Shown: one piece after another, positions 2,043 through 61,618 of the stretch
Layout of the letters: every line of letters begins with the position of its first letter
Numbering within the stretch: the stretch's first letter is position 1
Assembly (NCBI GenBank): GCA_023954035.1
Contig: JAMLIT010000020.1
Span: 1-62,115, forward strand
Origin: Burkholderiaceae bacterium
GTDB taxonomy: Bacteria > Pseudomonadota > Gammaproteobacteria > Burkholderiales > Burkholderiaceae_C
Length of the DNA stretch: 62,115 nt
Reading direction: 5' to 3'
Position numbers and translations under genes: made by a program
Notes under the pieces: generated by a model
Databases searched by the model: none
What the model was told of the DNA's origin: nothing
The model's input: only the letters and a program-made list of their open reading frames with translations

Positions 2043-2098
2043 GAGTTTTGCCTCTAGCGCTTGATCGGTAAGCGATAAAAGCTATAAAATTAGTAGCT
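2043..2098 (-). repeat. GCGCTT-core interspersed repeat, copy 1
   Basis: The + strand reads TTTTGCCTCTAGCGCTTG and then, after a variable centre, AAGCG and AGCTAT-like ends. It is a diverged member of the repeat found about 17 times in this window. It sits exactly where the duplicated GNAT fragment loses similarity to the intact gene. The stretch from here to 2333 holds nothing else I can identify. Confidence 0.75.
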
Positions 2099-2333
2099 AA
2101 AAATCGTTTGCCGTGCTAGTGGCAGTGCTAGAAAACTCAAGCCGACGGCCGGAAATGTTTGCGCCGTGCGTCCAGGACTGCCGCTTGCCCGCGCCCTTCG
2201 CGCCGCGCTGCTGCTGGCAAATTTCTTTGCGGCAGGAAATGCTTCAAGTCAGCAAACGGCGCACGCGCGGGACGGGCGCCGTCACCAGCGCCTGGATGGG
2301 TTCGAATCGGCGGCGCGAGAGCAGTGCAGCGAC

Positions 2334-3029
2334 TCAGCCGCGCCGACGCTGGTGCAGGGCGGTGGCGCCCAGCACCATGGCCAGCAGCAGCAGACTCCAT
2401 TCGGACAGTGTGGGCACGGCCGTCACAGAGGCTGGGCCGACGTCCAGGTTGTCCATGGCAAAGTGGAAGCCACTACCGGGGTATCCTGGGTGAGGTGTTC
2501 CATCTGCCGATGTCATGCGTACGCGGTCAATATTGGCCAGGTTCAGTGTGACCAGCGTTGGCGCGGTGGCTGAGAGCGTGTGGCTGGTGGTGGAAACCAG
2601 GCCGGCGTCCCGGTAGGCCTCAATGGTCACGACCAGATCGTCGTTCCAGGCGCCCGTCAGATACACGCTATTGAAGTTGAATTTGGCACCGGCAGGAGCG
2701 GTGATTACAAACTCCGCAGGATCTCCGTTGCGGTTGTAAGCCACATTGGTCCCGGACACGCGTCCCGCGTTGTAGCCGGAATTGCCGCTGGAAACCGCTG
2801 TGCCGTCTAAGCATCCGAAGGTGCTCCAATCCAGCCCGGCGTAGCCATTGGGAATGAGCATTCCAGTGCCGCAGGCGAGATCGTCAAAGTTAATCACAGC
2901 CGCCTGCGCGGCGACAGGTGCGGCGCCCAGGCACAGGGCAAAACCGAGCCCTGCGGCAATTCGGCGCGCGGCGCGTGTGAGGCGGTTGGGCAAACTGTCG
3001 GGTGTTGGGTGGCAGACGGCGATTGGCAT
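2334..3029 (-). CDS. IPTL-CTERM sorting-domain protein, secreted
   Basis: 231 residues. An N-terminal signal peptide (hydrophobic stretch about residues 24-42, AAQAA cleavage region) is followed by a beta-rich region opening with INFDDL, of the kind seen in PEP-CTERM-type secreted proteins. The C-terminus is VPTLSEWSLLLLAMVLGA plus a basic RRRG tail, the hallmark of IPTL-CTERM, a putative cell-surface sorting signal processed by an exosortase-like system. No exosortase gene is in the window. The gene lies between two copies of the GNAT 3' end, which suggests it arrived as a cassette. Ligand and function are unknown. Confidence 0.8.
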   Translation of the reverse strand: MPIAVCHPTPDSLPNRLTRAARRIAAGLGFALCLGAAPVAAQAAVINFDDLACGTGMLIPNGYAGLDWSTFGCLDGTAVSSGNSGYNAGRVSGTNVAYNRNGDPAEFVITAPAGAKFNFNSVYLTGAWNDDLVVTIEAYRDAGLVSTTSHTLSATAPTLVTLNLANIDRVRMTSADGTPHPGYPGSGFHFAMDNLDVGPASVTAVPTLSEWSLLLLAMVLGATALHQRRRG

Positions 3030-3251
3030 GGGTGAATTCCCTCGTTGGTTTAGGCGGCTGAAGCTATCACAAAACGTCTCTCGCTCGGACCGTGTTTGCC
3101 CTCGGCAGACGGCTTGGCGCAGCTACCAATGGCTCGCATGTTGTTTTCGATCAACGATTGTGGGCGGATCCCTGTCTGTTCTTGGCAGGGTCGGCAAGGC
3201 GCGCAGTTTTTGATGCGTTGGCAACGGCTGGCGTGCACCGCCGCGTTGCAA

Positions 3252-4478
3252 TCAGGGGTTTGGTGCCGGGCGCGTTGCAGTGCGAAAGGGCGTGTGCGCC
3301 CGCAGTTCTTCCACATACGCCGCCATGCCGGCATCTTCGCGCGCCAGGAAGCGTTCCACCGCGTCGGCAAAGGCCGGGTGCGCCAGCCAATGGGCGCTGT
3401 GCGTGGCCACAGGCATCAGCGCGCGGGCCATTTTGTGCTCACCTTGTGCGCCGCCCTCGAAGGCGCCCAATCCATGGGCAATGCACCAGGCGAGCGGCTG
3501 GTAGTAGCAGGCGTCGAAGTGCAGGCTGTCGACGCGCTCGAGCGCTCCCCAGTAGCGTCCGTAGGCTGTTGGCGACGGGAAATTCAATACATTTTGGCCT
3601 CCAGCGCTTGATGGGTCTGCGTTGATCGCTATCAAACTGCTAGCTATTGCCTGTCCCCCCCGCTCGGCAATGAACAGCAGCCAGGCGTCGGGCATGTCGT
3701 GCCCCATGCGCTCAAAGAAGGTACGGCTGAGGTAGGGCGGGTTGCCGTGCTCCAGATAGGTGCGTTCGTAGCAGCGGTAGAAGAACTCCCAGTCGGCAAC
3801 TGCAATGTCTGTGCCGCGCACCCAGCGAAAGCGCACGCCTGCATCCCGCACGCGGCGCTGTTCCTGGCGGATTTTCTTGCGCTTGTCCTGGGTAAGGGCG
3901 CCGAGAAAATGCTCGAAATCACGGAATTTTCCACCGTCTGGCGCAAGGTTGTTCCAGTGAAATTGCACCGTGGTGCGCTGCATCAGCCCGGCCTGCTTGC
4001 ACGCTGCAAGGTCCTCCTCGCTGCCAAATAGCAGGTGCAGGGACGACAAGGCGTGCTCCTCACACCAGGCTACCACGGCCCGCAGAAGTGCCGTGCGCGC
4101 GGCCGCATCGCGCGCGAGCAATCGGGTTCCAGGCACCGGCGTGAACGGCACAGCAATCAGCGCCTTCGGGTAGTAGTGCAGGCCATGCTCCTGGTAGGCG
4201 CGTGCCCAGGCCCAATCAAAGACGTATTCCCCGTAAGAATGCTCTTTGAGATACAGAGGGCAGGCGGCGATCAGAATGCCGTCCCGCTCCAGCGTCAGGA
4301 AGCGGGGGTGCCAGCCCGTGGCAGGCACGGCGCTGCCGCTGGTGTGCAGGGCAGCGAAGTATTCGTGGCGCATGAAGGGTGTGGCGTGCGCCTGCTGCTC
4401 CAGCAGTGCGTTCCACCGGGTGGCGTCCAGCGCCAGCGGGCTGGCGTGTACGCGGGTAATAATGGGCTTTTCAGCCAT
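3252..4478 (-). CDS. GNAT / FemAB-like acyltransferase family protein (PF04339-type)
   Basis: 408 residues, resembling the peptidoglycan biosynthesis/recognition FemAB-like family with a GNAT fold. Recognisable family blocks are FMRHEYFAAL (near residue 35), KEHSYGEYVFDWAWARAY (near 80), DKRKKIRQEQRRV, and TAYGRYWGALERVDSLHFDACYYQ. Substrate is not established for this family. Residues about 277-296 (SSLIAINADPSSAGGQNV) are encoded by an in-frame copy of the interspersed repeat and replace what is normally a short loop before YGRYWGA. The last third of the gene is duplicated at 1707-2035. It is divergent from nadE, with 89 bases between the starts. Confidence 0.85.
   Translation of the reverse strand: MAEKPIITRVHASPLALDATRWNALLEQQAHATPFMRHEYFAALHTSGSAVPATGWHPRFLTLERDGILIAACPLYLKEHSYGEYVFDWAWARAYQEHGLHYYPKALIAVPFTPVPGTRLLARDAAARTALLRAVVAWCEEHALSSLHLLFGSEEDLAACKQAGLMQRTTVQFHWNNLAPDGGKFRDFEHFLGALTQDKRKKIRQEQRRVRDAGVRFRWVRGTDIAVADWEFFYRCYERTYLEHGNPPYLSRTFFERMGHDMPDAWLLFIAERGGQAIASSLIAINADPSSAGGQNVLNFPSPTAYGRYWGALERVDSLHFDACYYQPLAWCIAHGLGAFEGGAQGEHKMARALMPVATHSAHWLAHPAFADAVERFLAREDAGMAAYVEELRAHTPFRTATRPAPNP
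3591..3649 (+). repeat. GCGCTT-core repeat, copy 2, inside the GNAT gene
   Basis: The + strand reads ATTTTGGCCTCCAGCGCTTG, a variable centre, then GCTATCAAACTGCTAGCTAT. It lies wholly within the GNAT coding region on the other strand and keeps the frame open. Confidence 0.8.
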
Positions 4479-4567: not shown

Positions 4568-6591
<2,024 letters not shown>

Positions 6592-10322: not shown

Positions 10323-12110
10323 ATGGAAATCACACCCGCCGAAATCGCATCGGCAGCCGCAGCCCAAAAGCAGGGCGCCGCGCCCGCCACCCAGGAACTC
10401 ATGGGGGCCGAAATCCTCGTCAAGGCCTTGCAGGCCGAAGGCGTCAAGTACATCTGGGGCTACCCCGGGGGCGCCGTCCTCTACATCTACGACGCGCTCT
10501 ACAAGCAGGACACCATGCAGCATGTGCTGGTGCGCCACGAGCAGGCGGCGATTCACGCTGCAGACGGTTATGCCCGCGCCACAGGCGATGTGGGCGTGGC
10601 GCTGGTCACTTCGGGCCCCGGCGTGACCAACGCCGTCACCGGCATCGCCACGGCCTACATGGACAGCATCCCCATGGTGATCATCACCGGCCAGGTGCCT
10701 ACCGCAGCCATTGGCCTCGATGCCTTCCAGGAATGCGACACCGTGGGCATCACGCGCCCCATCGTCAAGCACAATTTCCTGGTCAAGGATGTGCGCGACG
10801 TGGCGAGCACCCTGAAAAAGGCGTTTCACATTGCGCGCTCGGGCCGTCCGGGCCCGGTGGTGGTGGACATCCCGAAAGACGTATCTTTCAAGAAAACTGC
10901 GTTCGAGGGCTATCCGAAAACCATCGAAATGCGCTCGTACAACCCGGTGCGCCGCGGCCATGGCGGTCAAATCCGCAAAGCCCTGCAGCTGCTCTTGACG
11001 GCCAAGCGCCCCTACATCTACACCGGCGGCGGCGTGCTGCTGGGCAACGCCACCGAGGAGCTGCGCACCCTGGTGGACATGCTCGGCTACCCGGTCACCA
11101 ACACGCTGATGGGTCTGGGCGCCTATCCGGCCAGCGACCGCAAGTTCCTGGGCATGCCGGGCATGCACGGCACGGTGCAGGCCAACAATGCCATGCAGAA
11201 CTGCGACGTGCTGCTGGCCGTGGGGGCGCGTTTTGACGACCGCGTCATCGGCAACCCCAAGCATTTTGCGCAGAACGAACGCAAGATCATCCATGTCGAT
11301 ATCGACCCGTCGAGCATTTCCAAACGCGTCAAGGTCGATATCCCCATCGTTGGCGATGTCAAGGACGTGCTGACCGAGCTGATCGCCATGGTCCGCGAAA
11401 CCCCGACCCGCGCCGACGCCGCTGCGCTGGCCGCGTGGTGGGACACCATCGAAGGCTGGCGCAGCCGCGACTGCCTCAAGTACAGCATGGGCAGCTCGGA
11501 CGTCATCAAGCCCCAGTATGTGGTCGAGACGCTCTGGAACATGACCAAGGACGCAGACACCTACATCACGTCCGACGTCGGCCAGCACCAGATGTGGGCC
11601 GCCCAGTACTACCGCTTCGACGAACCGCGCCGCTGGATCAATTCCGGGGGCCTGGGCACCATGGGTGTGGGCATTCCCTATGCCATGGGCATCAAGCTGG
11701 CCAAGCCGCAAAGCGAGGTGTTCTGCATCACCGGCGAAGGCTCGGTGCAGATGAACATCCAGGAGCTCTCGACCTGCCTGCAGTACAACACCCCGATCAA
11801 GGTGGTGTCACTGAACAACCGCTATCTGGGCATGGTGCGCCAGTGGCAGGAGATCGAATACTCCGGCCGCTACAGCCACAGCTACATGGACGCGCTGCCC
11901 AACTTCGTCAAACTCGCCGAGGCCTTTGGCCATGTCGGAATGCTGATCGAGCGCCCGCAAGACGTGGAGCCGGCGCTGCGCGAAGCCCGCAAGCTCAAGG
12001 ACCGCACGGTGTTCATGGACTTCCGCACCGACCCCACCGAGAACGTGTTCCCCATGGTGCAGGCCGGCAAGGGCATTACGGAGATGCTGCTCGGTTCTGA
12101 GGATTTATAG
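10323..12110 (+). CDS. ilvB: Acetolactate synthase large subunit
   Basis: 595 residues, thiamine diphosphate enzyme. An N-terminal ~20-residue Ala/Gln-rich extension precedes the ThDP PYR domain with the catalytic Glu in RHEQAAIHAADGYAR (near residue 75), the central FAD-binding domain, and the C-terminal ThDP-binding motif ITGEGSVQMNIQ with Asn. It makes acetolactate or acetohydroxybutyrate for valine, leucine and isoleucine. The regulatory subunit ilvH is next. A copy of the interspersed repeat follows the stop codon directly. ilvI is an equivalent name. Confidence 0.97.
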   Translation: MEITPAEIASAAAAQKQGAAPATQELMGAEILVKALQAEGVKYIWGYPGGAVLYIYDALYKQDTMQHVLVRHEQAAIHAADGYARATGDVGVALVTSGPGVTNAVTGIATAYMDSIPMVIITGQVPTAAIGLDAFQECDTVGITRPIVKHNFLVKDVRDVASTLKKAFHIARSGRPGPVVVDIPKDVSFKKTAFEGYPKTIEMRSYNPVRRGHGGQIRKALQLLLTAKRPYIYTGGGVLLGNATEELRTLVDMLGYPVTNTLMGLGAYPASDRKFLGMPGMHGTVQANNAMQNCDVLLAVGARFDDRVIGNPKHFAQNERKIIHVDIDPSSISKRVKVDIPIVGDVKDVLTELIAMVRETPTRADAAALAAWWDTIEGWRSRDCLKYSMGSSDVIKPQYVVETLWNMTKDADTYITSDVGQHQMWAAQYYRFDEPRRWINSGGLGTMGVGIPYAMGIKLAKPQSEVFCITGEGSVQMNIQELSTCLQYNTPIKVVSLNNRYLGMVRQWQEIEYSGRYSHSYMDALPNFVKLAEAFGHVGMLIERPQDVEPALREARKLKDRTVFMDFRTDPTENVFPMVQAGKGITEMLLGSEDL

Positions 12111-12112
12111 GC

Positions 12113-12170
12113 AAATTGGCCTCTAGCGCTTATCCAGTAAGCGTAACCAGCTACTATTTCGATAGTATTT
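12113..12170 (+). repeat. GCGCTT-core repeat, copy 4, between ilvB and ilvH
   Basis: AAATTGGCCTCTAGCGCTTA, then TAAGCG and CAGCTACTAT. It starts 3 bases after the ilvB stop. The rest of the ilvB-ilvH gap (to 12295) holds a GC-rich hairpin-forming segment (12185-12228) and the ilvH ribosome binding site. Confidence 0.85.
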
Positions 12171-12295
12171 TTTAGACGAATCTATTGCCTGCCAAGGCGC
12201 GCGCTTACCGGCGCGTGCGGAGGGCAGCAAAAAACGACAGTTTTCTGCGACCACTTTTTTGATCGCTCTGTCGTCGCAAAAAGAGGAATCCTTTC

Positions 12296-13982: not shown

Positions 13983-14055
13983 GTCGTTGGCGGCGCGCGC
14001 TGGCGGAGCGCGCCCGGCCGCGACTACACTGCCGCCAGAGTTCACGGAGTATCCA

Positions 14056-14108
14056 CTATTAAAAAAATAGCTATATGCGCACTATCTTCCTGCGCTGGAG
14101 GCCATTTT
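14056..14108 (+). repeat. GCGCTT-core repeat, copy 5, carrying the pssA ribosome binding site
   Basis: ACTATTAAAAAAATAGCTAT, then TGCGC, and the end GCGCTGGAGGCCATTTT. The GGAGG of the repeat end lies at 14097-14101, 8 bases before the pssA ATG at 14110. Confidence 0.85.
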
Positions 14109-14109
14109 G

Positions 14110-14943
14110 ATGCATGAAAACGACCAGGGCGCGGCGCCGCACGGGGTGTTCGTGCGCAAGCGCCGCAAAGGCATCTACATCCTGCCCAACCTGTTCACAC
14201 TGGCTGCGTTGTTCGGCGGGTTCTACGCCATCGTCATGGCCATGAACGGCCACTTCGACCTGGCCGCCATCGGCATCTTCTGCGCCATGGTGCTCGACAG
14301 CCTCGACGGGCGCGTGGCGCGCATGACGAACACGCAAAGCGCCTTCGGCGAACAGATGGATTCGCTCTCGGACATGGTGTCTTTCGGCGCGGCGCCTGCT
14401 CTCATTGCCTACGAGTGGGCGCTCAAGGGATTGGGCCGCTGGGGCTGGATCGCGGCGTTCGTCTACTGCGCCTGCGCAGCGCTGCGTCTGGCGCGCTTCA
14501 ACGTGAACACCAGCGTGGTGGACAAGCGCTTTTTCCAGGGGCTGCCTTCGCCCGCCGCTGCGGCGCTGGTGGCAGGTTTCATCTGGCTGGTGACGGAACT
14601 GGGGATCGGACGCGGTCAGTCGGGTTGGCTGAGCTGGCAGCAGACCACCTGGACCATGTTTGCCTTCACCCTGTACGCCGGCCTCACCATGGTGACCAAC
14701 GTACCGTTCTACAGCTTCAAGGACGTACAGATGAAAAAAAGCGTTCCGTTCGCGGCCATCGTGCTCATCGCGCTTGCCTTTGCCATGATCAGCATTCGCC
14801 CGCCGGTGGTGCTGTTCTGCATTTTCGTGGTCTATGGCTTCAGCGGCTACGCGGTGTATGCCTGGCGAAAGTCCAAAGGCCAGCAGACCAGCGTCATCAG
14901 CACCTCGACCGACGAGCCCGACGAGCGCGGCCTGCACAATTGA
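14110..14943 (+). CDS. pssA: CDP-diacylglycerol-serine O-phosphatidyltransferase
   Basis: 277 residues, membrane-embedded CDP-alcohol phosphatidyltransferase of the Bacillus-like PssA type. The signature DSLDGRVAR..FGEQMDSLSD is near residues 63-88, and there are about seven hydrophobic segments. It makes phosphatidylserine, which Psd (39132-39992) decarboxylates to phosphatidylethanolamine. The ATG at 14110 is spaced 8 bases from the GGAGG provided by the interspersed repeat. A TTG directly before it and an ATG at 14114 are less likely starts. Confidence 0.94.
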   Translation: MHENDQGAAPHGVFVRKRRKGIYILPNLFTLAALFGGFYAIVMAMNGHFDLAAIGIFCAMVLDSLDGRVARMTNTQSAFGEQMDSLSDMVSFGAAPALIAYEWALKGLGRWGWIAAFVYCACAALRLARFNVNTSVVDKRFFQGLPSPAAAALVAGFIWLVTELGIGRGQSGWLSWQQTTWTMFAFTLYAGLTMVTNVPFYSFKDVQMKKSVPFAAIVLIALAFAMISIRPPVVLFCIFVVYGFSGYAVYAWRKSKGQQTSVISTSTDEPDERGLHN

Positions 14944-20489: not shown

Positions 20490-20501
20490 AAAATTGGCAT
20501 G

Positions 20502-22410: not shown

Positions 22411-22411
22411 T

Positions 22412-46388: not shown

Positions 46389-46439
46389 GTTCATTGTAGG
46401 CGCAGCCGATGCGTTTGGGCAGCGCCGAAGCACACCGTT

Positions 46440-46805: not shown

Positions 46806-47029
46806 TGCGCGTCCTTCGTGGTGGGCGACGGGGGCAGGCGTTCGATCAGGGCGTCTACACGGGCCCGCGCGGCCTGCAGGCGCGAGCGCAGCGAATCGCG
46901 CTCCTGCGTCAGCGCGGCCACCTGGTCCGTCAAAAGCGCAATGGTGTTTTCAAGCTGCTCGTGGCGAACCAGCAGCCGCTCCACGCGTTCGGCAATGCGA
47001 TCGAAGGGTGACGAAGAGTCCATGGACAT
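46802..47029 (-). CDS. ZapB-like coiled-coil protein (TIGR02449-type)
   Basis: 75 residues, almost all coiled coil: RIAERVERLLVRHEQLENTIALLTDQVAALTQERDSLRSRL. The usual partner gene upstream of zapA. Alternative ATG at 47023. Confidence 0.8.
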   Translation of the reverse strand: MSMDSSSPFDRIAERVERLLVRHEQLENTIALLTDQVAALTQERDSLRSRLQAARARVDALIERLPPSPTTKDAQ

Positions 47030-47120
47030 AGCCCAAGAATTGTAGGGGCAGCGCGGCGCGCCGGGTCGCATTGCCGGCCTACATTGTGGCCGCCCGGTGC
47101 ACGCCATGTCGTAAACTCCG

Positions 47121-47340
47121 CCCGTTGGTGCTCGCGCCGTGGTTCACACGGCGCAGTTCAACGGGAAGCAGGGAGGAGGGCGCCGATCATGGCGCCAGCC
47201 GAGCCTGCGCTGCCCCCGCAACGGTCAGCGGCCGAATCTTTCGATTCACCTTTCACACCCAGTGCCACTGGGCGCCTTGAACAAGCGCCTGGGAAGGCCG
47301 TGAAAGGCGCGCCGCCAGCCCGGATACCGGCCAACACGGT
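47121..47340 (+). promoter_or_regulatory. Cobalamin riboswitch
   Basis: The B12 box GCCAGCCCGGATACCGGCC is at 47314-47332, preceded by the aptamer core CTGCCCCCGCAACGG (47210-47224) and CCAGTGCCACTGGG. Flanking CCGTTGG and CCAACACGG close the aptamer. Adenosylcobalamin should repress btuB and the genes behind it. The expression platform may include hairpins at 47343-47365 and a T8 tract at 47413-47420; no Shine-Dalgarno is evident before the btuB ATG. Confidence 0.95.
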
Positions 47341-47427
47341 GGTTGCGTGCGCCCTTGGCGCGTGCAGCCGTGTCACCCATACGCTGGCGGGGAAGCCGGC
47401 ACGGGTTGTCTGTTTTTTTTGTCTTCC

Positions 47428-49411: not shown

Positions 49412-49999
49412 ATGAGCTTGTCCGTAGCCCGCAGCGAGCTGATTCTGGGTGGCCAGAAAAGCGGCAAGTCGCGCCGCGCCGAGGCGCTGGCGGCTGCGTG
49501 GCTGGCCGCCAGCCCCAAGCACAGCGCGCTGCTCATCGCCACGGCAGAGGCGCACGACGAGGAAATGCGTGCGCGCATCGCGCGCCACCAGAGCGACCGC
49601 GCCGCGCGCGTGCCGCGCCTGCAGACGTGGGAGGAGCCCCGCGACCTGGCGGCGGCCTTGGAAAAACACGGCGCCGCAGAGGCGCTCATCGTCGTCGATT
49701 GCCTCACGCTGTGGCTGACGCACTGGCTCTTTGGACAAGATGAAAATTTGAAGCAAAAAGAGGCTCTAGCGCACGGCTGGCAAGCGCAAGCAGCTCTCTT
49801 TTTTGAAGCATTGGCGAAAACCCCTGGGCCGGTTGTTCTGGTGGGCAACGAGATTGGCCTGGGGGTCATTCCCTTAGGAAGCCAGGTGCGCGCCTTTGTC
49901 GATGCGCTGGGCCTCGTGAACCAGCAGGCAGCGCAGGTGTGCGACCGCGTCACGCTGATGGCGGCCGGCCTGCCTCTGAGCTTGAAGGAGGTGCCATGA
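49412..49999 (+). CDS. cobU: Bifunctional adenosylcobinamide kinase / adenosylcobinamide-phosphate guanylyltransferase
   Basis: 195 residues. P-loop LILGGQKSGKSRRAE near residue 14, LIVVDCLTLWLTHWLF near 100, VVLVGNEIGLGVIPLG near 145. Residues ~114-131 (KQKEALAHGWQAQAALFF) are encoded by an in-frame interspersed repeat between the two last blocks, a region variable in length in the family. Also called cobP. btuF starts inside its stop (4-base overlap). Confidence 0.93.
   Translation: MSLSVARSELILGGQKSGKSRRAEALAAAWLAASPKHSALLIATAEAHDEEMRARIARHQSDRAARVPRLQTWEEPRDLAAALEKHGAAEALIVVDCLTLWLTHWLFGQDENLKQKEALAHGWQAQAALFFEALAKTPGPVVLVGNEIGLGVIPLGSQVRAFVDALGLVNQQAAQVCDRVTLMAAGLPLSLKEVP
49751..49805 (+). 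repeat. GCGCTT-core repeat, copy 12, inside cobU
   Basis: AAGCAAAAAGAGGCTCTAGC, GCAC, then GCAAGCGCAAGCAGCTCTC. In frame. Confidence 0.8.
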
Positions 50000-50904
50000 A
50001 ACCCACGCCCATCAAGCGCATTCTCATCGTGCTGGCGGTCTTGCTGGTGCTGGTGCTGGCCATGGCCACGCTGGCCCAGGCCGGGCCCATCACCGTCGTG
50101 GACGACAAGGGCCGAACCGTCACGCTTGCCGGCGCGCCGCAGCGCATCGTCAGCCTGCTGCCCTCGCTGACAGAGACGGTGTGCGCGCTGGGCGCCTGCG
50201 ATCGACTGGTGGGTGTGGACCGCTATTCCAACTGGCCGGCCAGCGTCAAGGTGCTTCAGGGCGTGGGCGGTGGGCTGGACCCGAACATTGAAGCCATCGT
50301 GGCACTGCGCCCCGATGTGGTGCTGATGGCCACCTCGTCGCGCGCGCAGGTGCGGCTCGAATCCTTGGGCCTGAAGGTGGTGGCCCTGGAGCCCAAAACC
50401 CATGCCGACGTGCAGCGCGTACTTGGCAAGGTCGGCCAGGTGCTGGGCGTGCAGGATGCGCTGCAGGTCTGGCGCGTGATTGACGCCGGTGTGCAGGCCG
50501 CCGCCCAGTCGGTGCCTGCCGCCGCACATGGCACGCGGGTGTACTTCGAAGTCAGCAGCGGGCCGTTTGCTGCGGGGCAGGCGTCCTTCATTGGCGAGAC
50601 CCTGACCCGGCTGGGCGCGGGCAACATCATTCCCGCGTCGCTGGGGCCGTTTCCAAAAATCAACCCCGAATTCGTGGTGCGCGCCGACCCCGACCTCATC
50701 ATGGTCGGTGAGCGCAGCGCCGATGGCATGGCCGCCCGGCCCGGCTGGGCGCAGATGCGCGCGATTCGCGAAGGCCGGCTGTGCCGGTTCGATGCGGCGC
50801 AGTCCGACGTGTTGATCCGCCCCGGCCCGCGCATGGCCGAGGCGGCGCGTCTGATGGCAGCCTGCCTGAGCGACAAAACCCAGCAAAAAACCGTGCGACC
50901 ATGA
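49996..50904 (+). CDS. btuF: Cobalamin ABC transporter substrate-binding protein
   Basis: 302 residues. Signal or anchor helix (ILIVLAVLLVLVLAMATLAQA), then a periplasmic-binding fold with TVVDDKGRTVTLAGAPQRIVSLLPSLTETVCALGACDRLVGVDRYSNWP typical of BtuF. No lipobox Cys is present, so it is probably soluble or held by an uncleaved helix. Overlaps btuC by 4 bases. Confidence 0.9.
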   Translation: MKPTPIKRILIVLAVLLVLVLAMATLAQAGPITVVDDKGRTVTLAGAPQRIVSLLPSLTETVCALGACDRLVGVDRYSNWPASVKVLQGVGGGLDPNIEAIVALRPDVVLMATSSRAQVRLESLGLKVVALEPKTHADVQRVLGKVGQVLGVQDALQVWRVIDAGVQAAAQSVPAAAHGTRVYFEVSSGPFAAGQASFIGETLTRLGAGNIIPASLGPFPKINPEFVVRADPDLIMVGERSADGMAARPGWAQMRAIREGRLCRFDAAQSDVLIRPGPRMAEAARLMAACLSDKTQQKTVRP

Positions 50905-52016
50905 GCGCCGTCATGCCCCTGCCGTCCGTCCCCACACGCGCCCGTACCGTGCACGCGCGCCGGGGTGGCTGGCTGGCGGTTGCACTCATCGTTCTGGCGC
51001 TGTGCCTGCTGGCGCTGGGCACGGCGGTGGGCAGCATGGGGCTGGAAAACCTCTTGCCCGCGCTGTGGAACCCGCAGGGCGACAGCGCGGCACACGCCAT
51101 GGCGCAGCAAATCGTCTGGGACATCCGCCTGCCGCGTACGCTGGGCGCCTGGTGTGCCGGCGCACTGCTCGGGCTGGCGGGCGCCGTGGCGCAGGGGCTG
51201 TTTCGCAACCCGCTGGCCGACCCCTACCTGCTGGGCAGCGCCTCGGGCGCTTCGCTGGGCGTGGCCATCGCGCTGGCGCTGATGGGTGGCGGCGTGGGCA
51301 TGCTGGGGGGGGCGCAAAGCGCCATCGCCATTTCTGTCTATTCCAGCCACTGGCTGGTGCGCCTGGGCCTCACCGGCGCCGCCTTTGTCGGCGCGGTGTT
51401 GGCGGTGCTGCTCACGCTGGTGCTGGCGCGCGGCGTGCAGCACACGCTGCGCCTGCTGCTGGCCGGCGTGGTGGTGGGCGTGGTGCTGGGGGCGCTGACC
51501 TCGCTCATCCTGCTGCTTTCGCCCGATTCGCTGCAAGCCATGCAGGCGTTTTTGCTCGGCTCAACCGGCTTTGTCGGCTGGACGTCTTGCGTGCTGATGG
51601 CCGCCGTGTGGCTGCTGTGCCTGGTGGTGGCCTGGCTGCTGGCGCGCGGGCTCGATGGCCTGGCGCTGGGCGAGGCCACCGCGCTCAGCCTGGGGCTGCG
51701 GCTGGCGCCGCTGCGCGCCGCGCTGGTGGCGGTGCTGGCGCTGGCCACCGGCACGGCGGTGGCGCAGACCGGTTTGATCGCTTTTGTCGGCCTGGCCGCG
51801 CCGCACCTGGTGCGCGCCGCCGTGTCGGTATCGCACGGGCGCTTGATGTTGTTGTCCAGCCTGATGGGGGGCGCCCTGCTTGCCGGCGCCGACCTGCTGG
51901 CGCGCGGCCTGCTGGCACCGCAGGAGCTGCCCGTGGGGGTGCTCACTGCGGTGCTCGGTGGTGGATACCTGCTCTGGCTCATGCACCGTCGCACCTCTCC
52001 AGGAGGCTTGCTGTGA
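50901..52016 (+). CDS. btuC: Cobalamin ABC transporter permease
   Basis: 371 residues, FecCD/BtuC type with about ten helices: LPRTLGAWCAGALLGLAGAVAQGLFRNPLADPYLLGSASGASLG and GLIAFVGLAAPHLVRAAVSVSH, the loop that contacts BtuD. N-terminal 20 residues are basic and cytoplasmic. Confidence 0.93.
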   Translation: MSAVMPLPSVPTRARTVHARRGGWLAVALIVLALCLLALGTAVGSMGLENLLPALWNPQGDSAAHAMAQQIVWDIRLPRTLGAWCAGALLGLAGAVAQGLFRNPLADPYLLGSASGASLGVAIALALMGGGVGMLGGAQSAIAISVYSSHWLVRLGLTGAAFVGAVLAVLLTLVLARGVQHTLRLLLAGVVVGVVLGALTSLILLLSPDSLQAMQAFLLGSTGFVGWTSCVLMAAVWLLCLVVAWLLARGLDGLALGEATALSLGLRLAPLRAALVAVLALATGTAVAQTGLIAFVGLAAPHLVRAAVSVSHGRLMLLSSLMGGALLAGADLLARGLLAPQELPVGVLTAVLGGGYLLWLMHRRTSPGGLL

Positions 52017-52813
52017 TTGCTCCTGAAAAAGTAGCTGTCAGCGCAGACAGAATAAGCGCTGGCATAGGAAAACGCCCGATATTGCACAGCATCACCTTGC
52101 CGCTGGCGGCAGGCCGCTGGACCAGCATCGTCGGTCCCAACGGCGCGGGCAAATCGACGCTGCTCAAGGTGCTGGCCGGGCTGCTGCCAGCGCAACGCGG
52201 GCAGGTGACTTTGGCTGGCCGTGCCTTGCAGGAATGGCCAGCCCGCGAGCGCGCCTGCCAGATGGCCTGGCTGGGCCAGAACGAAGCGGCTGCCGACGAC
52301 CTGACGGTGCTCGATGTGGCCCTGCTGGGCCGCCTGCCGCACCAGGGCTGGTTGCAGCCGCCCAGTGCAGCCGACCACGCCGCGGCGGAAGCCGCGCTGC
52401 GCCAGACGCAGGCCTGGGACTGGCGCGAGCGGCCGCTGGGCCAGCTCTCTGGCGGCGAGCGCCAGCGCGTGCTGCTGGCGCGCGCCCTGGCCGTGAACGC
52501 CCCGGTGCTGCTGATGGATGAGCCCCTGGCGAATCTCGACCCACCGCACCAGGCCGACTGGTTGCTGCTGGTGCGCAGCCTGGTGGCGCAGGGCTGCACC
52601 GTGGTCAGCGTGCTGCACGAGCTGTCGATGGCGCTGCAGGCCGACGACGTGGCCGTGCTGGCGGGTGGCCGCCTGCTGCACCACGGCGCCGCACGCCACA
52701 GCGCCACCCACCGCGCGCTCGAAGCCGTGTTCGACCAGCGCATCGCCATCCACTGTGTGCAGGACCAATGGCTGGCCTTGCCACGGATGCACGCCCCTGA
52801 ACTTGCACTTTGA
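52013..52813 (+). CDS. btuD: Cobalamin ABC transporter ATPase
   Basis: 266 residues from a GTG overlapping the btuC stop (GTGA). Walker A GPNGAGKST near residue 43, signature LSGGERQRVLLARAL, Walker B VLLMDEPLANLDPPHQ, switch His in SVLHELS. The N-terminal strand (residues ~5-20, EKVAVSADRISAGIGK) is encoded by the interspersed repeat. Confidence 0.93.
   Translation: MIAPEKVAVSADRISAGIGKRPILHSITLPLAAGRWTSIVGPNGAGKSTLLKVLAGLLPAQRGQVTLAGRALQEWPARERACQMAWLGQNEAAADDLTVLDVALLGRLPHQGWLQPPSAADHAAAEAALRQTQAWDWRERPLGQLSGGERQRVLLARALAVNAPVLLMDEPLANLDPPHQADWLLLVRSLVAQGCTVVSVLHELSMALQADDVAVLAGGRLLHHGAARHSATHRALEAVFDQRIAIHCVQDQWLALPRMHAPELAL
52025..52071 (+). repeat. GCGCTT-core repeat, copy 13, at the btuD N-terminus
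   Basis: GAAAAAGTAGCTGTCAGCGC, AGACAGAATAAGCGCTGGCA. In frame, 9 bases after the start codon. Confidence 0.78.
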
Positions 52814-53657: not shown

Positions 53658-54734
53658 ATGCCCTGGCACTGGCTCCATCCGCTTGCGGCGCACCCTGGTT
53701 TCGGGTCTGCCTGCATGGCGCTGGCCGTGCTGGTGGCGCTGGCGGTGGACCGGCTGTGGGGCGAGCCGCCCGCGCGCTGGCACCCGGTGGTGTGGATGGG
53801 CAGAGCGCTGGAGGCCTGCGGTGCGCGCATTGCGCCTACCAGGGAGACCCACCGAAATTTGAAGCATTTTTGGCTCGCAGCGCTTGTCTGGGGAGCGTTG
53901 GCAGCTCTGGTTGTGATAGCAGCCGCTGTGTTGCAGGGCATGCTGCTTTGGCTGGGCAGCCCGGCGCCCGCCCGTCCCCAGGGGCTCGACATCGAGGGCG
54001 TGGGCATGGCGGGCGCCCATGCGGTGCAAACGGCGCTGTTGGCACTGCTGACCGCCACGGTGCTGGGGCTGCTGCTCAAGCCGATGCTGGCGCTGGCCGC
54101 GCTGCAAAGCGAAGTGCGCGCAGTGGAAGCGGCGCTGGGCGAGTCGCTGGAAGCGGGCCGCGCGCGCCTGGCCTGGCTGGTGAGCCGCGATGTGGACAGC
54201 CTTGGCGTCGACGAAGTGCGCCAGAGCGCCATCGAATCGCTGGCCGAAAACCTGAACGACTCGGTCGTGGCGCCCATCTTCTGGTTCGCGCTGGCGGGCC
54301 TGCCCGGCGCCGCGCTGTACCGCTTTGCCAACACCGCCGACGCCATGTGGGGCTACCCAGGAATGCGCGGCGGGCGCTACTGGCAATGGGCGGGCAAGTG
54401 GGCGGCGCGGGCCGACGATGTGCTGTCGTGGCTGCCGGCGCGGCTCACGGCGCTGCTGCTGGCGCTGGTGGCCGGGGGCGTGTCGCTGGGGCAACTGGCA
54501 GGCGAGGCGCGCAAAACCCCGTCGCCCAACAGCGGCTGGCCCATGGCGGCGATGGCGCTGGCGCTGGGCGTGCAGCTGTCCAAGGCGGGGGTGTACCAGC
54601 TCCATTCCACTGGCCGCGCGCCGACGCCGTGCGACGCTGCATATGCGCAAAATTTGGTATCAAAAGTGGCTCTAGCGCTTGTGCTGATTGCGCTCACAGC
54701 TATTGTTTTTGTAGTTTTTGGTATGGACGCCTGA
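53658..54734 (+). CDS. cobD: Adenosylcobinamide-phosphate synthase
   Basis: 358 residues, membrane protein (cbiB in the Salmonella scheme). VDRLWGEPPARWHPVVWMGRALE near residue 30, DVDSLGVDEVRQSAIESLAENLNDSVVAPIFW near 178, NTADAMWGYPGMRGGRYWQWAGKWAARADDVLSWLPARLTA near 228. Residues ~68-88 (FWLAALVWGALAALVVIA) and ~334-354 (VALALVLIALTAIVFVVF) are encoded by two copies of the interspersed repeat and form hydrophobic helices. Couples aminopropanol phosphate to cobyric acid. Confidence 0.93.
   Translation: MPWHWLHPLAAHPGFGSACMALAVLVALAVDRLWGEPPARWHPVVWMGRALEACGARIAPTRETHRNLKHFWLAALVWGALAALVVIAAAVLQGMLLWLGSPAPARPQGLDIEGVGMAGAHAVQTALLALLTATVLGLLLKPMLALAALQSEVRAVEAALGESLEAGRARLAWLVSRDVDSLGVDEVRQSAIESLAENLNDSVVAPIFWFALAGLPGAALYRFANTADAMWGYPGMRGGRYWQWAGKWAARADDVLSWLPARLTALLLALVAGGVSLGQLAGEARKTPSPNSGWPMAAMALALGVQLSKAGVYQLHSTGRAPTPCDAAYAQNLVSKVALALVLIALTAIVFVVFGMDA
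53861..53921 (+). repeat. GCGCTT-core repeat, copy 14, inside cobD (N-terminal third)
   Basis: GCATTTTTGGCTCGCAGCGC, TTG, then AGCGTTGGCAGCTCTGG. Encodes a transmembrane helix. Confidence 0.75.
54658..54720 (+). repeat. GCGCTT-core repeat, copy 15, at the cobD C-terminus
   Basis: TATCAAAAGTGGCTCTAGCG, CTTG, then GCGCTCACAGCTATTG. Encodes the last helix of CobD in the same repeat frame as copy 14. Confidence 0.82.
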
Positions 54735-57375: not shown

Positions 57376-58431
57376 ATGCAAATTCCTCTTCTTCCCGATC
57401 TCACCCATCCAGCCCTCACCGCGCGCCTGCAGCACCTGATCGACCAAAAAACCAAGCCGCTCGGCTCGCTCGGGAAGCTGGAATCTCTGGCCCTGCGCCT
57501 GGGCCAGATTCTGGGCACCGAGGCACCGCAGTTGCAGGCCCCGCAAATGCTGGTGTGCGCCGGCGACCACGGCCTGGCAGCGCGCGGCGTGTCGGCCTTT
57601 CCGAGCGACGTGACCTGGCAGATGGTCGAGAACTTTCTTGCCGGCGGCGCAGCCGTCAGCGTGCTGGCGCGCCAGCACGGTCTGGCGCTCACCGTGGTGG
57701 ACTGCGGTGTGGCGAAGGGCATCGCCCCGCGCGAGACCACGCCCGGCCAGCCGCGCCTGCTCCTGCGCAAAGTGGCAGCGGGCACGCAGGATGCATCTCA
57801 AGGTCCCGCCATGAGCACGGCGCAGTGCGAAACCGCCATTCAAAACGGTATCGACGTGGTGCGAAGTTTGCCCGGCAATGCCTTGTTGCTGGGGGAAATG
57901 GGCATTGGCAACACCTCGGTGGCCTCGCTGCTGCTGGCACGCTTGTGCGGCCTGCCCATTGCCGAATGCACGGGCGCAGGCACCGGGCTGGACGCAGCAG
58001 GCATTGCGCGCAAATGCGCTGTGTTGCAGCAAGCGCTGGACGCCAACGCAAGCGCCACCAAGCCACTTGCTGCCCTGGCCGCGCTGGGTGGTTTTGAAGT
58101 GGCCACACTGGTCGGCGCGGTGCTGCAGGCCGCCGCCGAGCGCCGCGTGATCGTGGTCGATGGCTTCATCACCAGCGCCGCTGTTTTGGTGGCCAGCCGC
58201 CTGCAGCCGTGGGTGCTGCAGCGCTGCGTATTCGCCCACCGCTCGGGTGAGCGCGCGCATGGCCTGATGCTGGAGCAGATGCAGGCCGAGCCGCTGCTGG
58301 ACCTGGGCCTGCGCCTGGGCGAGGGCTCGGGCGCCGCGCTGGCCTGGCCGCTGCTGCAGTCGGCCTGCGCCATCCTGCGCGAGATGGCGAGTTTTGAGGC
58401 GGCGGGGGTGTCGGGGCAAAGCGCAGCGTGA
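57376..58431 (+). CDS. cobT: Nicotinate-nucleotide-dimethylbenzimidazole phosphoribosyltransferase
   Basis: 351 residues. KTKPLGSLGKLESLALRLGQI near residue 25, VCAGDHGLAARGVSAFPSDVT near 60, GEMGIGNTSVASLL near 170, catalytic Glu in RLGEGSGAALAWPLL near 318. Activates the lower-ligand base for nucleotide-loop assembly. cobS, commonly next, is not found downstream. Confidence 0.95.
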   Translation: MQIPLLPDLTHPALTARLQHLIDQKTKPLGSLGKLESLALRLGQILGTEAPQLQAPQMLVCAGDHGLAARGVSAFPSDVTWQMVENFLAGGAAVSVLARQHGLALTVVDCGVAKGIAPRETTPGQPRLLLRKVAAGTQDASQGPAMSTAQCETAIQNGIDVVRSLPGNALLLGEMGIGNTSVASLLLARLCGLPIAECTGAGTGLDAAGIARKCAVLQQALDANASATKPLAALAALGGFEVATLVGAVLQAAAERRVIVVDGFITSAAVLVASRLQPWVLQRCVFAHRSGERAHGLMLEQMQAEPLLDLGLRLGEGSGAALAWPLLQSACAILREMASFEAAGVSGQSAA

Positions 58432-58476
58432 TGGGCTGCCCTGGCGTTGCCGCCAGCTTGAGGAAACGGAATGCGC

Positions 58477-58536
58477 TAAAGGCTATTAAATCAATAGCTG
58501 TTAGCGCTTATGGGGTAAGCGCTACAGGATGATTTT
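58477..58536 (+). repeat. GCGCTT-core repeat, copy 16, after cobT
   Basis: AAAGGCTATTAAATCAATAGCTGTTAGCGCTT split by a variable centre, then TAAGCGCTACAGG. One of the best-preserved copies. The remaining gap to 58790 contains no gene I can support; it is less GC-rich and shows no clear hairpin terminator. Confidence 0.88.
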
Positions 58537-58790
58537 GCTGTGGATCTGCGCTGAGTGAAAGAGGTTGGGCTGGCGCGAAATGGTGCCGTCTGTGGAGCGG
58601 CTCTCGGCCAGGAGGTGTAGTTCGCCTGCTCGAGAGCGAAGACTGTTCAAGGCTGTCTGCTGACCTTGAATTCTCCGCGCTGCACGACCGCAGCCCCCAA
58701 AACCCGCCGTTCATGGCTGGCAAGCGCGTCGGTCCGCTGAACTGACAAAACCGGTCAGCGACTAACTACCCCACGCTCACGGATTACAGC

Positions 58791-60017
58791 TCACCAATCC
58801 ATGTCGGCTGCCTGTTCCATCCGGCTGGTCAAGTGCTCCACGAAGCAGTTCATGTCAGCTTCCGACGTCATCGCCTGTGCATAGGTTCCGTCCACGGTGT
58901 ACGACAGAATGGAAGGAAGCTCGCTGAAGAGGTAGAGCCGTGCTGGCGCCAAAGCGCCGACCCACAGGTTGTCAAGAAACAGTTCGATCTCAGACACCGC
59001 AGAGGCTTCGTCGAACGCCAAGCGGCCCGTCAGGCTTACCGGATGGTCGCGGTTGTTAGTCAACAGGACTGGCACCGCGCCGGCACCCGAATGGAAGCTG
59101 AACGCTTGACCTTCCTTGCCGAACGCGCCATGCGCGACGAAGTTCCGGACCTGAGCACGGATATCCAAGAGCTTGTCATACCTCGCCTTTGTCTCGCCAT
59201 GCTCAAGATCCAAGGCCGCTTTGAACTTTGTGCTCCAGTTTGCTTTGGCAAGCTCCGCTACCTGCGTGCCGAGGGTCATTCTTCCCCGAAGAATGGCGAG
59301 GTGAATGAACACATGCTCAGTCCAGCTGAAGAAGGCCTCGATCGCCGCCTGCGCAGTCCACTTGAGGTGCTTGCGCAGCGACACCGAGGAAAGAATGCGG
59401 TCCCGATCCACAGGGGAGTACGAGCTATCTCTCTGGCTCGCGATGTGGGCCGCCAGCGCCTGGCTTTCACGATCTATATCCCGGAACCGATCTCGGAAGT
59501 AAGAGTAGCGGTCGAACAGTTCGCGGCTGTTGTTCACCACGTTGATCTCCGACGTAGAGATCGCCTGTTGGGCACGCCAACGAAAGTAAGGCTCGGCAAC
59601 AACAATTGCAGCTTTTACAAGGGCAACGATGGCGGCTGCATCATCCTCGGCTTGCCCGCTCGGTCGGCCGCTCATTCTTGCTTCGGGATCAAGGTTCGGC
59701 GCGAAGACGCCTATGCCCATCTTCTTGTGCTCGATCACATACAAGCGCCCATGAAACCGGACAGGAACAGCCCACGCAGTCTTCTCCCATTGGCCGAGAC
59801 TGGGAAAGCTGAGCAAGTCAACAAGGAGAAAGTAAACGAGAAAATTCGACGGTAGGCTACGGCCGGCTTCAGTGCGGGCCGACAGAATCAGCCCGAAGCC
59901 CTCCTCGTTCGAGCGCGGCGCCCCTGCTGGCTCCAATTCTCCGAGCGCCGCGCGAGCGCTCTCTCGCAATTTCTCTGGGATCACCTGCAGAGCGGAAAGC
60001 TTCGATTTTTTTACCAT
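58791..60017 (-). CDS. Uncharacterised protein with HEPN-type RNase motif
   Basis: 408 residues, not recognised as a named family. Residues ~215-300 look like a HEPN helical bundle: KWTAQAAIEAFFSWTEHVFIHLAI, KANWSTKFKAAL, then KLLDIRAQVRNFVAHGAFG with the R-x4-H signature (Arg291, His296). The N-terminal half contains LLVDLLSFPSLGQWEKTAWAVPVRFHGRLYVIEHKKMGIGVF, possibly a beta-rich sensor region. The C-terminal ~100 residues are of unknown fold. The G+C and codon use look lower than in the cob genes. Paired with a membrane protein gene upstream on the same strand; possible toxin or abortive-infection effector. Confidence 0.65.
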   Translation of the reverse strand: MVKKSKLSALQVIPEKLRESARAALGELEPAGAPRSNEEGFGLILSARTEAGRSLPSNFLVYFLLVDLLSFPSLGQWEKTAWAVPVRFHGRLYVIEHKKMGIGVFAPNLDPEARMSGRPSGQAEDDAAAIVALVKAAIVVAEPYFRWRAQQAISTSEINVVNNSRELFDRYSYFRDRFRDIDRESQALAAHIASQRDSSYSPVDRDRILSSVSLRKHLKWTAQAAIEAFFSWTEHVFIHLAILRGRMTLGTQVAELAKANWSTKFKAALDLEHGETKARYDKLLDIRAQVRNFVAHGAFGKEGQAFSFHSGAGAVPVLLTNNRDHPVSLTGRLAFDEASAVSEIELFLDNLWVGALAPARLYLFSELPSILSYTVDGTYAQAMTSEADMNCFVEHLTSRMEQAADMDW

Positions 60018-60203
60018 GTTCCTCGTCGTCGAGCCGCAGCTTGGTAACTCGCGATCTCGTTGCTGTGCATCTAGGCAGATGTAGTCGGTGTGCCAGCGCC
60101 GGCCTCAGCCTTGTGCGTGCGACACGGAGACAGCTGCCAACGTATGTGACGCCGCCTTCGACGCCGTAACTTTTGCTGCTGGCCTGGGCATAAGGCCAGT
60201 TGC

Positions 60204-61163
60204 TCATTTCTTAGCAGTTACCGCTGTTCTGAAGACCTTTAGGACGCCCACATACCCTTTTGCGTTTGCCGTGATGAACGCGTCACTTGACAAGCGAAGC
60301 ATCTCATCGAGCTCAATCGGTTGCACTTCCAGTCCGAGGGGCTCCCCTTGGACTTCGAGCAGTCCTATACATAGTTGAGAGAGCGCAAGCATGCGCAGCC
60401 AGAGGATCGGTCGCGAACTGGGCGTGAAGCCGATCATCAAAGCAGGTACAGGATGCAAGCCCTTCTTCAAGTCATCGTCGTCGAGGATTCTCTGAAATTC
60501 GTCGAAGCGAACCACGCGCTCGATCCCTGTTCCGGCATCTTTGACGATCACGGTTGCAGCCAAATTCGATAGGACATCGCTGAACACGTGCTGGTTCTGA
60601 CTGGTCCAGTCCTCGTTGGGATGCGCCATGGAAACATCTGCACTGGAAAGACACTGGCCGGCTTGACGCTTGAACTTAAGCAGCGTGCGCATATCAGGGT
60701 CGACCATGAAGTCCGCAAATGCCGACTGGCGCTCGATGAGTTCAGCAATCGCCAGGAGACGCAGCAAGCGGTACGCAGTGCTTCGCAAGAAGTGTCCCTG
60801 CAATGACATGTCGTAAGAACCGGATGGCTTGAGGCCAACGCGGGCAACGCGGTTGGTCCACTCGGCTGCCGCCACGAGCAGTTGGAACCGCAGTGGGCCA
60901 AGTGCTTGATAAAGGCGCTTGCGTGCTTCGGACCGATAGGCCCGATCTGCGGCGGCGTCCCCCAAGACCAACTCAACTCTTTCCTTGTACTGCGCCTCAA
61001 CTTCGGCCTTTGCTGCATTAACTGCCGTTGTCAGCTTCGCGTCGAACTGCTTGAGGTCCTTGGCAAGCCGGTTATTGATGAGCTTCTCTGTCAGCAGCCA
61101 AGACGCGCCAAGGGTGGCGGCAGCAGTGATCCCCATCGCAGAAAGTAGGTCCCAGAATTCCAT
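60204..61163 (-). CDS. Uncharacterised membrane-anchored helical protein
   Basis: 319 residues, not recognised. One N-terminal membrane span (MGITAAATLGASWLLTEKL, ~10-28), a coiled coil (KDLKQFDAKLTTAVNAAKAEVEAQYKERVELVL, ~35-70), then an alpha-helical cytoplasmic region. Good GGAGG 8 bases before the ATG at 61163. It precedes the HEPN-motif gene by 186 bases on the same strand, so the two may form one unit. Function unknown. Confidence 0.65.
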   Translation of the reverse strand: MEFWDLLSAMGITAAATLGASWLLTEKLINNRLAKDLKQFDAKLTTAVNAAKAEVEAQYKERVELVLGDAAADRAYRSEARKRLYQALGPLRFQLLVAAAEWTNRVARVGLKPSGSYDMSLQGHFLRSTAYRLLRLLAIAELIERQSAFADFMVDPDMRTLLKFKRQAGQCLSSADVSMAHPNEDWTSQNQHVFSDVLSNLAATVIVKDAGTGIERVVRFDEFQRILDDDDLKKGLHPVPALMIGFTPSSRPILWLRMLALSQLCIGLLEVQGEPLGLEVQPIELDEMLRLSSDAFITANAKGYVGVLKVFRTAVTAKK

Positions 61164-61562
61164 TTACCAAACCTCCAGAAGCCGCGTTCGGACCTGGCTG
61201 CCAATCGATGGTGCAGGCCAGACGATCCTATTCGCATTCTCCAGGCAGACCAACTACACGGCCGAGAGGTGGACGCTTTGCGCTTCGGTCGTAGCCGACC
61301 GCGTCTCACTCGAATCCAGTCATTCAAGCCACGCGAGCGACACAGGGCTTAGCGACCGCAAGACAGCCCAGACGGTTCTTTCACCTACAGGTGACAACGG
61401 CGACAGTCGCTGCGCTGCCGCTACCCACGTTTGCCGTCTGAACGTCAGCAACGGGTCGCTTGCAGACCTGGATACTCAGTGCCGTGCTCCCGTTGTTGCC
61501 GCCTGATGATTGGCACCCAACGCGTCGGCGGCCACTGGCCTACGGCACCGGAATACGCCAGA

Positions 61563-61618
61563 AGCTATGAAATAAATAGCTGTCAGCGCAATGAAATAAT
61601 TCGCTGCAAGCCAATTTG
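61563..61618 (+). repeat. GCGCTT-core repeat, copy 17
   Basis: AAGCTATGAAATAAATAGCTGTCAGCGC broken by a centre, then TTCGCTGCAAGCCAATTT. The second GCGCT arm has decayed. It marks the end of the island-like segment. Confidence 0.7.

Follow-up and report, generated by a model that had tools for sequence, protein, structure and literature searches.

What keeps one palindromic repeat in place along a bacterial chromosome when some of its copies lie over ordinary codons? The question is raised by contig JAMLIT010000020.1 of the Burkholderiaceae bacterium assembly GCA_023954035.1, a stretch of 62,115 nucleotides (the window), in which an initial annotation described a dispersed palindromic repeat with a GCGCTT core and likened it to the palindromic elements of Rickettsia. 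Judged from the sequence comparisons set out below, the element is very probably a maintained recognition site that is driven by a reader and evolves in concert, and not a mobile insertion.

The repeat unit and its copies

The heptamer AGCGCTT occurred 33 times in the window against a shuffle mean of 16.1, and TAAGCGCTAGAGGCC, at no more than three mismatches, 15 times against a mean of 1.6; neither count was reached in any of 100 shuffles. A profile seeded with 12 aligned copies detected 16 copies at E ≤ 2.1e-6 and one weak copy in the window, and after refinement 17 copies above 15 bits, the hit threshold. The early estimate of about 17 copies thus holds as 16 clear copies and a weak one. 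The iterated profile was run on 862,115 bases of the source genome (the sample: the window plus 40 stretches of 20 kb, placed at round coordinates on contigs with covariance-model matches) and found 136 copies, while an order-3 Markov sequence of the same size gave none. The GC content of the element was 42% in a genome of 65% GC. Together with the shuffles and the empty control this leaves practically no weight for chance or codon-usage likeness as the explanation. The element is a strong genomic over-representation of one motif.

The density of one copy per 6.3 kb of the sample extrapolates to about 500 copies per chromosome. With a covariance model 150 of 1,940 first-look candidates in the source genome were scored and all 150 matched, so that the genome holds at least 150 copies; because only part of the first-look candidates were scored, covariance-model counts are lower bounds. 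The alignment of the 16 window copies spanned 79 columns, to which all column numbers refer, and was gap-free, as were all 136 profile hits of the sample. The conserved block comprised about 70 nucleotides (columns 7-76) with sharp ends and flanks at background. The layout was as first described, yet the unit is longer than had been noted; its consensus in one orientation reads GCTAT-(W-tract)-ATAGCTG-AGCGCTT-N7-AAGCGCT-AGAGGCC-AATTT-N6-AAATTT. Positions A25, G26, C27 and C49 were invariant in 136 of 136 profile-found copies. The claim of a rigid length rests on profile hits: of the covariance-model matches, two of 150 in the source genome were 77 and 78 instead of 79 nucleotides long and one of 150 in genome G012 had 80, and one gapped profile hit each was seen in genomes G123 and G213. 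At gathering scores an Rfam scan yielded no family that covers the element, and all six hits in the window were to other RNAs.

The copies in the window, with their strands and surroundings, were the following.

2029-2107, minus strand: copy that overlaps the 3' end of a gene predicted at 1749-2039
3576-3654, minus strand: copy in a FemAB-like gene (3252-4478, minus strand), in a loop that is 12-15 amino acids shorter in element-free orthologues
5275-5353, minus strand: degenerate copy in the NAD synthase gene (4568-6223, plus strand)
12098-12176, minus strand: copy over the 3' end of gene 10323-12110 and immediately ahead of the ilvH RNA (12175-12242)
14045-14123, plus strand: copy providing GGAGG before the ATG at 14110, with orthologous copies in genomes G012, G007 and G014
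22341-22419, minus strand: copy at the 3' end of gene 22412-25042 (minus strand), with orthologous copies in G012, G007 and G014 whose loops and flanks have diverged
26887-26965, minus strand: copy in purL (26056-30099, plus strand), amino acids 279-301, found at the same purL site in several genera
30109-30187, plus strand: intergenic copy after purL; in six sister species its core has visibly been retained better than the flank upstream
33515-33593, plus strand: copy between the convergent genes 32263-33525 (plus strand) and 33582-35387 (minus strand)
37585-37663, plus strand: weak copy of 21 bits, the aligned sequence being present in G012
43929-44007, minus strand: copy in selO (43739-45259, minus strand), length unchanged against the element-free genome G002
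49741-49819, minus strand: copy in a CobU-family gene (49412-49999, plus strand)
52009-52087, plus strand: copy at the 3' end of gene 50901-52016 (plus strand)
53852-53930, minus strand: copy in a CobD/CbiB gene (53715-54734, plus strand), over a hydrophobic segment common to element-free orthologues
54647-54725, minus strand: second copy in the CobD/CbiB gene, where it codes for the hydrophobic C-terminal segment VALALVLIALTAIVFVV
58472-58550, plus strand: copy between the convergent genes 57376-58431 (plus strand) and 58791-59984 (minus strand)
61554-61632, plus strand: copy near the window end, outside called genes

The presence of copies within genes was confirmed, although seven rather than the eight originally counted lie there completely (those starting at 3576, 5275, 26887, 43929, 49741, 53852 and 54647). 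Other details of the early description also stood up. Several copies overlap stop codons, and the copy at 14045 does form a ribosome binding site; the same GGAGG was present at this place in G012, G007 and G014. Genes were predicted by a purpose-written gene caller, by which 87.5% of the sample was coding, and because of this caller some in-gene calls may be false; the in-gene copies at L023:18930 and L008:16649 look like spurious antisense open reading frames (ORFs). On these predictions 37 of the 136 sample copies were wholly in genes, 54 lay across a gene end and 45 were intergenic. Among the 37, 12 were in sense frame 0, 4 in sense frame 2, 5 in antisense frame 0 and 14 in antisense frame 2, while the remaining two, both weak (29 and 25 bits), were in a fifth frame. 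The tolerance for both orientations and at least two frames seen at the outset thereby extends to four of six frames for 35 of 37 copies.

Origin of the copies within genes

Rickettsia palindromic elements are palindromes that sit within genes in several frames as in-frame insertions. If the present copies had entered genes in this manner, a gap of about 23 amino acids would be expected in element-free orthologues. The flanks of the intergenic window sites map in no element-free genome, so the test of origin rests on the in-gene copies. Spanning alignments to the element-free genomes G002 and G005 were of equal length within ±1 amino acid in 14 of 20 and 13 of 18 cases, respectively. Repeat-free orthologues sharing the same peptide segments, which the initial annotation had named as speaking against its proposal, were thus largely what was found. 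The element-bearing genome G014 showed no length change in 14 of 14 alignments at in-gene copies. The purL copy is shared by nine further congeners, and in three element-free congeners the flanking parts of the same codons were present with a difference of 15 bp instead of 70; element-free purL orthologues were 5-8 and not 23 amino acids shorter at the copy at 26887.

Because the clade of G002, G005 and G008 seems to have lost the element secondarily (see below), a gap test against these three genomes alone is not decisive, and five element-free genomes were added, of which three belong to other families of the order and two to genera of the same family. The 27 segments sent yielded 71 spanning alignments over 17 sites; length differences are net values over whole segments of about 113 amino acids, and two site-genome pairs were counted twice. 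The orthologues were within ±2 amino acids in 25 alignments and shorter by 3-8 in 20, which places 45 within -8 to +2. Eleven were shorter by 9-17 amino acids and 13 longer by more than two. A deficit of 18 or more was seen in two of 71 alignments, both at L003:12536. This site is one of three where the element occupies a lengthened loop: element-free genomes lacked 8-27 amino acids there, 9-17 at L031:14278 and 12-15 in the FemAB-like protein. Such loops weigh against a purely in-place origin and a few in-gene copies may be insertions. At most sites tested, however, the comparisons indicate that the copies have mostly arisen by substitution in existing sequence. We therefore rejected a Rickettsia-type insertion for most in-gene sites, and the proposed parallel does not hold there.

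Repetitive extragenic palindromes (REP) and bacterial interspersed mosaic elements (BIME) are palindromic as well and are located near 3' ends; a GTAG/CGTC foot beside the hairpin is a feature of the REP/RAYT type. A mobile palindromic element, either of the Rickettsia type or a REP mobilised by a RAYT transposase and inserted in frame, would account for the many copies, for their two orientations and for their patchy occurrence across genera, and the lengthened loops fit it too. We nevertheless consider it very improbable. The 23-amino-acid gap was absent at most in-gene sites, gapped copies were missing among the 136, copies are kept at orthologous sites and the purL site has changed its dialect in place (see below). 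No turnover was seen at the testable window sites, which sets the element apart from REP and BIME. Furthermore, Y1_Tnp transposases occurred in 65 of 80 genomes with no relation to the element: none was found in the bearers G003 and G119, and 4, 3 and 4 in the element-free G002, G005 and G008. The RAYT-type mobiliser that had been suggested was rejected on these grounds for most in-gene sites.

Copies of the window have counterparts at orthologous positions in G012, G007, G014 and others, where the core is retained and loops and flanks have diverged. The purL site could be made out in several metagenome-assembled genomes (MAGs) and in loci named Acidovorax temperans, A. facilis, Rhodoferax ferrireducens, Polaromonas and Ottowia; in 14 of 80 named purL loci one copy or more exceeded 12 bits, and a pooled profile raised this number to 15. 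The codons AGC, TAT and AAA were recurrent at the site in most of 17 bearers. Codon identity at equal residues was 0.685 at the site and 0.667 in the rest of the gene in these bearers, a weak sign, compared with 0.464 and 0.617 in 13 element-free genomes.

Lineage dialects and loss of the element

In the source genome column 35 was G in 89% and column 49 C in 100% of the copies. In genome G123 (20 ungapped copies in 140 kb) the two columns were exchanged, with C in 75% at column 35 and G in 95% at column 49. Columns 37 and 47 were swapped as well and the dyad was preserved; this joint change of 35/49 and 37/47 between genomes is read here as that of a symmetric DNA core. Six Polaromonas loci with 21 copies had G at column 49 in 86%, and column 35 stayed mostly G so that the dyad was not preserved. 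A Polaromonas MAG (L097) with five copies carried GGCA in four and CCGGCT in four. Genome G010 was mixed at column 49 with four C and four G, and G213 did not differ from the source genome at the threshold used.

The comparison of loci holding a purL copy plus at least one other copy bears on whether such changes occur at fixed places. In 12 of these 14 loci the purL copy agreed at column 49 with the majority of the copies of the same locus; L126 was a tie and L104 disagreed. In Rhodoferax purL the dialect core turns Ser-Ala into Ser-Pro, and the Polaromonas loci have a site with the same context as the window copy in selO, probably selO itself, that carries the Polaromonas core. The copies within a genome share a lineage-specific dialect. 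That sites which stay at their orthologous places change in concert is a sign of a reader.

The exact 14-mer AAGCGCTAGAGGCC was present in 55 of 299 genomes of the family, in line with the early remark that the repeat is found in Comamonadaceae. The model matched 22 of 80 further genera, 13 of them with at least 29-59 matches, three with 9-13 and six with 1-3, and found none in 58; no more than 59 places were scored per genome, so these counts are lower bounds. From 200 genomes drawn from the order three matched; two lie within the family and the third, 6% contaminated, had one copy, although other dialects may have been missed because the model is of the source dialect. Within the genus, searched apart from G009 and G011, ten bearers had from 68 to at least 150 matches each, and G002, G005 and G008 had 0, 1 and 0. 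In the purL tree these three genomes were nested among bearers with support of 0.95-1.0, and the clade seems to have undergone a near-complete secondary loss of the element. G000, G007 and G012 stood apart from the other congeners in this tree, which suggests that purL may have been transferred. L126, a MAG beside A. temperans and A. facilis in the purL tree, had three degenerate copies close to where those of Acidovorax lie and is perhaps a second lineage losing the site.

A replacement dialect in G002 was considered and discarded, as none appeared in 460 kb of its sequence: the top dyads of this genome belong to a tandem array with a 60-bp period, probably CRISPR. In the G002 sample (L059-L061 and L207-L226) this array of about 27 copies dominated the spaced-word statistics.

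Placement, pairing and the putative reader

Element copies cluster at the 3' ends of genes. At junctions with a gap of at least 50 nucleotides, 28 of 49 convergent, 51 of 274 co-directional and 12 of 82 divergent ones were occupied. Outside genes the hairpin was stronger than that of shuffled sequence (-12.3 against -7.0 kcal/mol). Of the inner A-T pairs, 37-47 was paired in a fraction of 0.70 and 38-46 in 0.77 there, as opposed to 0.32 and 0.27 inside genes. The clustering at 3' ends and the hairpin and pairing data would suit a sequence-specific bidirectional terminator or 3'-end element, its in-gene copies being tolerated by-products, and PMC5217627 gives 44 convergent against 4 divergent locations for a motif of Acidovorax ebreus (see below). 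Even so, we hold this explanation to be improbable. It has to accommodate the 37 copies wholly in predicted genes, including purL and selO, where the fold still reached -10.7 kcal/mol. The tract beside the hairpin (columns 61-64) was T-rich in 70 of 99 copies outside genes and A-rich in 23, so that the downstream tract is AAA-rich and not TTT-rich in 23 of 99. Within the source genome compensatory change was scarce: pairing of the three stems was near the expectation under independence, e.g. 69 against an expected 63.3 of 99 for pair 37-47 (mutual information: 10 of 500 permutations), and the strongest column dependencies were those between neighbours, with columns 62-63 being TT (73) or AA (23). 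An RNA hairpin as the prime constraint was rejected on this basis. Pairing near chance, with A-tracts that may read AAA or TTT, is expected of a site that is read on double-stranded DNA. The inner palindrome looks as if it had found a second use at gene ends, where it may double as a bidirectional terminator.

The copies were also spaced more evenly than gene junctions would dictate. The coefficient of variation of the spacing was 0.815 compared with 0.96 for random placement (p 0.034), and only five gaps between copies were shorter than 1 kb against 15.0 ± 3.2 in a null of reshuffled gene junctions; the copies are over-dispersed. The best 150 copies of G012 showed an even spread (p 0.21) and no strand polarity (p 0.25), and a KOPS- or Chi-like polarity was discarded. 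Carriage on mobile replicons was hardly seen: 6 of 72,556 plasmid and 0 of 50,697 phage records matched one consensus, a search of low sensitivity.

Over-dispersion and the preference for convergent junctions would suit a site for a chromosome-organising or nucleoid protein, present every few kilobases, wrapped in the manner of a topoisomerase or IHF and lost together with the protein. The dyad, whose A-tracts point outward at a distance of about one helical turn, and the clade-wide loss would fit as well. We regard this as unlikely, yet as an explanation to be taken seriously. A change of specificity would have to take place at hundreds of individually selected sites, which appears hard for such a protein and easier for a drive, and no candidate protein was found.

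For the maintained recognition site we propose the following course. The element would be a roughly dyad-symmetric site of about 70 bp on double-stranded DNA, of which a trans-acting putative reader would keep about one per 6 kb, or by extrapolation about 500 per chromosome. Within genes, most sites would originate and evolve where they stand, through substitutions and small indels in ordinary codons, and all sites in one genome would drift jointly to a lineage dialect. If fragments carrying the site were preferentially imported and recombined, the site would accumulate by molecular drive, as for the uptake signal sequences (USS) of Pasteurellaceae and the DNA uptake sequences (DUS) of Neisseriaceae. 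The chances seem to us even that the putative reader is part of such an uptake or transformation specificity. Reading of the tag perhaps helps the cell to recognise DNA of its own species. The wider picture we advance tentatively, with a little less than even confidence: a dyad-symmetric uptake signal of about 70 bp would drive itself through Comamonadaceae-type chromosomes, with some 500 sites per genome rewritten, codons of core proteins such as PurL included, with dialects as possible barriers of isolation and with genome-wide erasure once the reader is lost.

The over-dispersed spacing and the even, unpolarised spread of the best copies of G012 count for this proposal, and so do several parallels with USS as given in PMC1626085. 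Pasteurellaceae carry hundreds or more copies with clade-specific cores and an in-place origin, and an insertion test on Haemophilus influenzae USS had the same outcome as that on the in-gene copies here; moreover, USS consist of a core with AT-rich tracts about a helical turn apart. DUS resemble the element in their lineage dialects, in inverted pairs associated with terminators and in coding copies whose residues depend on the dialect (PMC3630211). Natural transformation has been reported for A. temperans and A. facilis, though not by DNA of another Acidovorax species (PMC4212676), and loci of both species carry the element, an overlap at the level of species.

A number of points weigh against uptake, which, like binding and a receptor, is a prediction. 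The lack of transformation between Acidovorax species may be due to plain sequence divergence. Only 37 of 136 copies (27%) lie in genes compared with 65% for USS, and the unit of about 70 bp far exceeds the 9-12 bp of described USS and DUS. The best likeness to a USS core was 9 of 10 positions, to an H. ducreyi variant, which 23 of 4000 shuffles attained (60 of 4000 when four cores were tried), and the dialects of other genera reached 6-8 of 10. ComEC was found in 78 of 80 genomes and FimT/GspH in 68 of 70, bearing or not, and neither discriminates; ComEC is present in the element-free G002 and G005 too. None of the trans factors searched for, Y1_Tnp included, accounts for the pattern. Finally, neither a match above 11 bits nor a motif taking the place of the element turned up in 460 kb of G002. 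Loss of ComEC or FimT/GspH as the cause of the loss of the element was rejected, both being kept in G002 and G005; G008, which is 84% complete, had no ComEC match.

There are further differences to the known systems. The element is dyad-symmetric and occurs at 65% GC, whereas USS hosts have 37-44% GC (Table 2 of PMC1626085). DUS are 10-bp units without flanking motifs (PMC1626085) and have a known receptor, ComP; their best match to the element consensus was 6 of 10. The beta-proteobacterial repeat element (BRE; PMC3110155) is dispersed, about 90 bp long, has been counted in Comamonadaceae and has some copies in coding sequences, but its GC content of 69% and its tandem arrays set it apart by description and composition.

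Parts of the element have been in print. PMC5217627 lists GCTTAT(N)5AAGCG of A. ebreus as a potential novel motif with 114 copies, mostly near gene ends and five in genes. It fits columns 35-40 and 46-50 of the element (column 40 is C in 43% and T in 33%) and is present exactly in the window copy 12098-12176; the motif entry, as far as available, is without the full unit, frames, orthology or dialects. ATAGCT(N)22CAAAAG of Polaromonas naphthalenivorans, 18 of 125 copies of which are in genes (same source), resembles the element by description only. The presence of copies in genes is thus partly in print, although the initial annotation knew of no account of in-frame capture. In the literature searched, which most subscription papers lay beyond, neither the full unit nor its in-place origin, its dialects or a role as uptake signal was described.

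If the uptake proposal is true, a further bacterial group, of environmental Betaproteobacteria, would tag its own DNA beside Pasteurellaceae and Neisseriaceae. The dialects together with a loss clade nested among bearers would constitute a natural experiment for finding the reader and for a drive at the level of DNA that reshapes proteins. Even if the reader should be a chromosome-organising protein, hundreds of concertedly evolving 70-bp sites, some of them coding, would be unusual.

The element may also explain short hypothetical ORFs such as DUF1010 and mark the likely source lineage of an integron cassette. The Escherichia coli plasmid pP11b (NZ_MZ513635.1) has a full copy (46.5 bits, E 5e-15) in the coding sequence 54251-54541 (L247:1492-1561), a DUF1010 ORF between dfrA12 and aadA2 and beside intI1. 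Its core is of the source-genome type, pointing to an element-bearing Comamonadaceae-type chromosome as its origin. Three element-crossing ORFs were compared with DUF1010 (PF06231): one, crossing the L023 copy whose first column is at base 465, matched positions 1-22 with E 0.009, below the curated cut-off, another gave E 0.96 and the third none. The first 22 or so positions of DUF1010 may be a translation of the element.

Some neighbours of the window copies deserve mention. The ilvH leader RNA (RF02993) starts where the copy 12098-12176 ends. A 6S RNA and a cobalamin riboswitch at 46213-47349 lie ahead of the cobalamin genes 49412-49999 and 53715-54734, which together contain three element copies. 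A tandem pair of tRNA-Asn genes with equal scores is located at 20414-20619.

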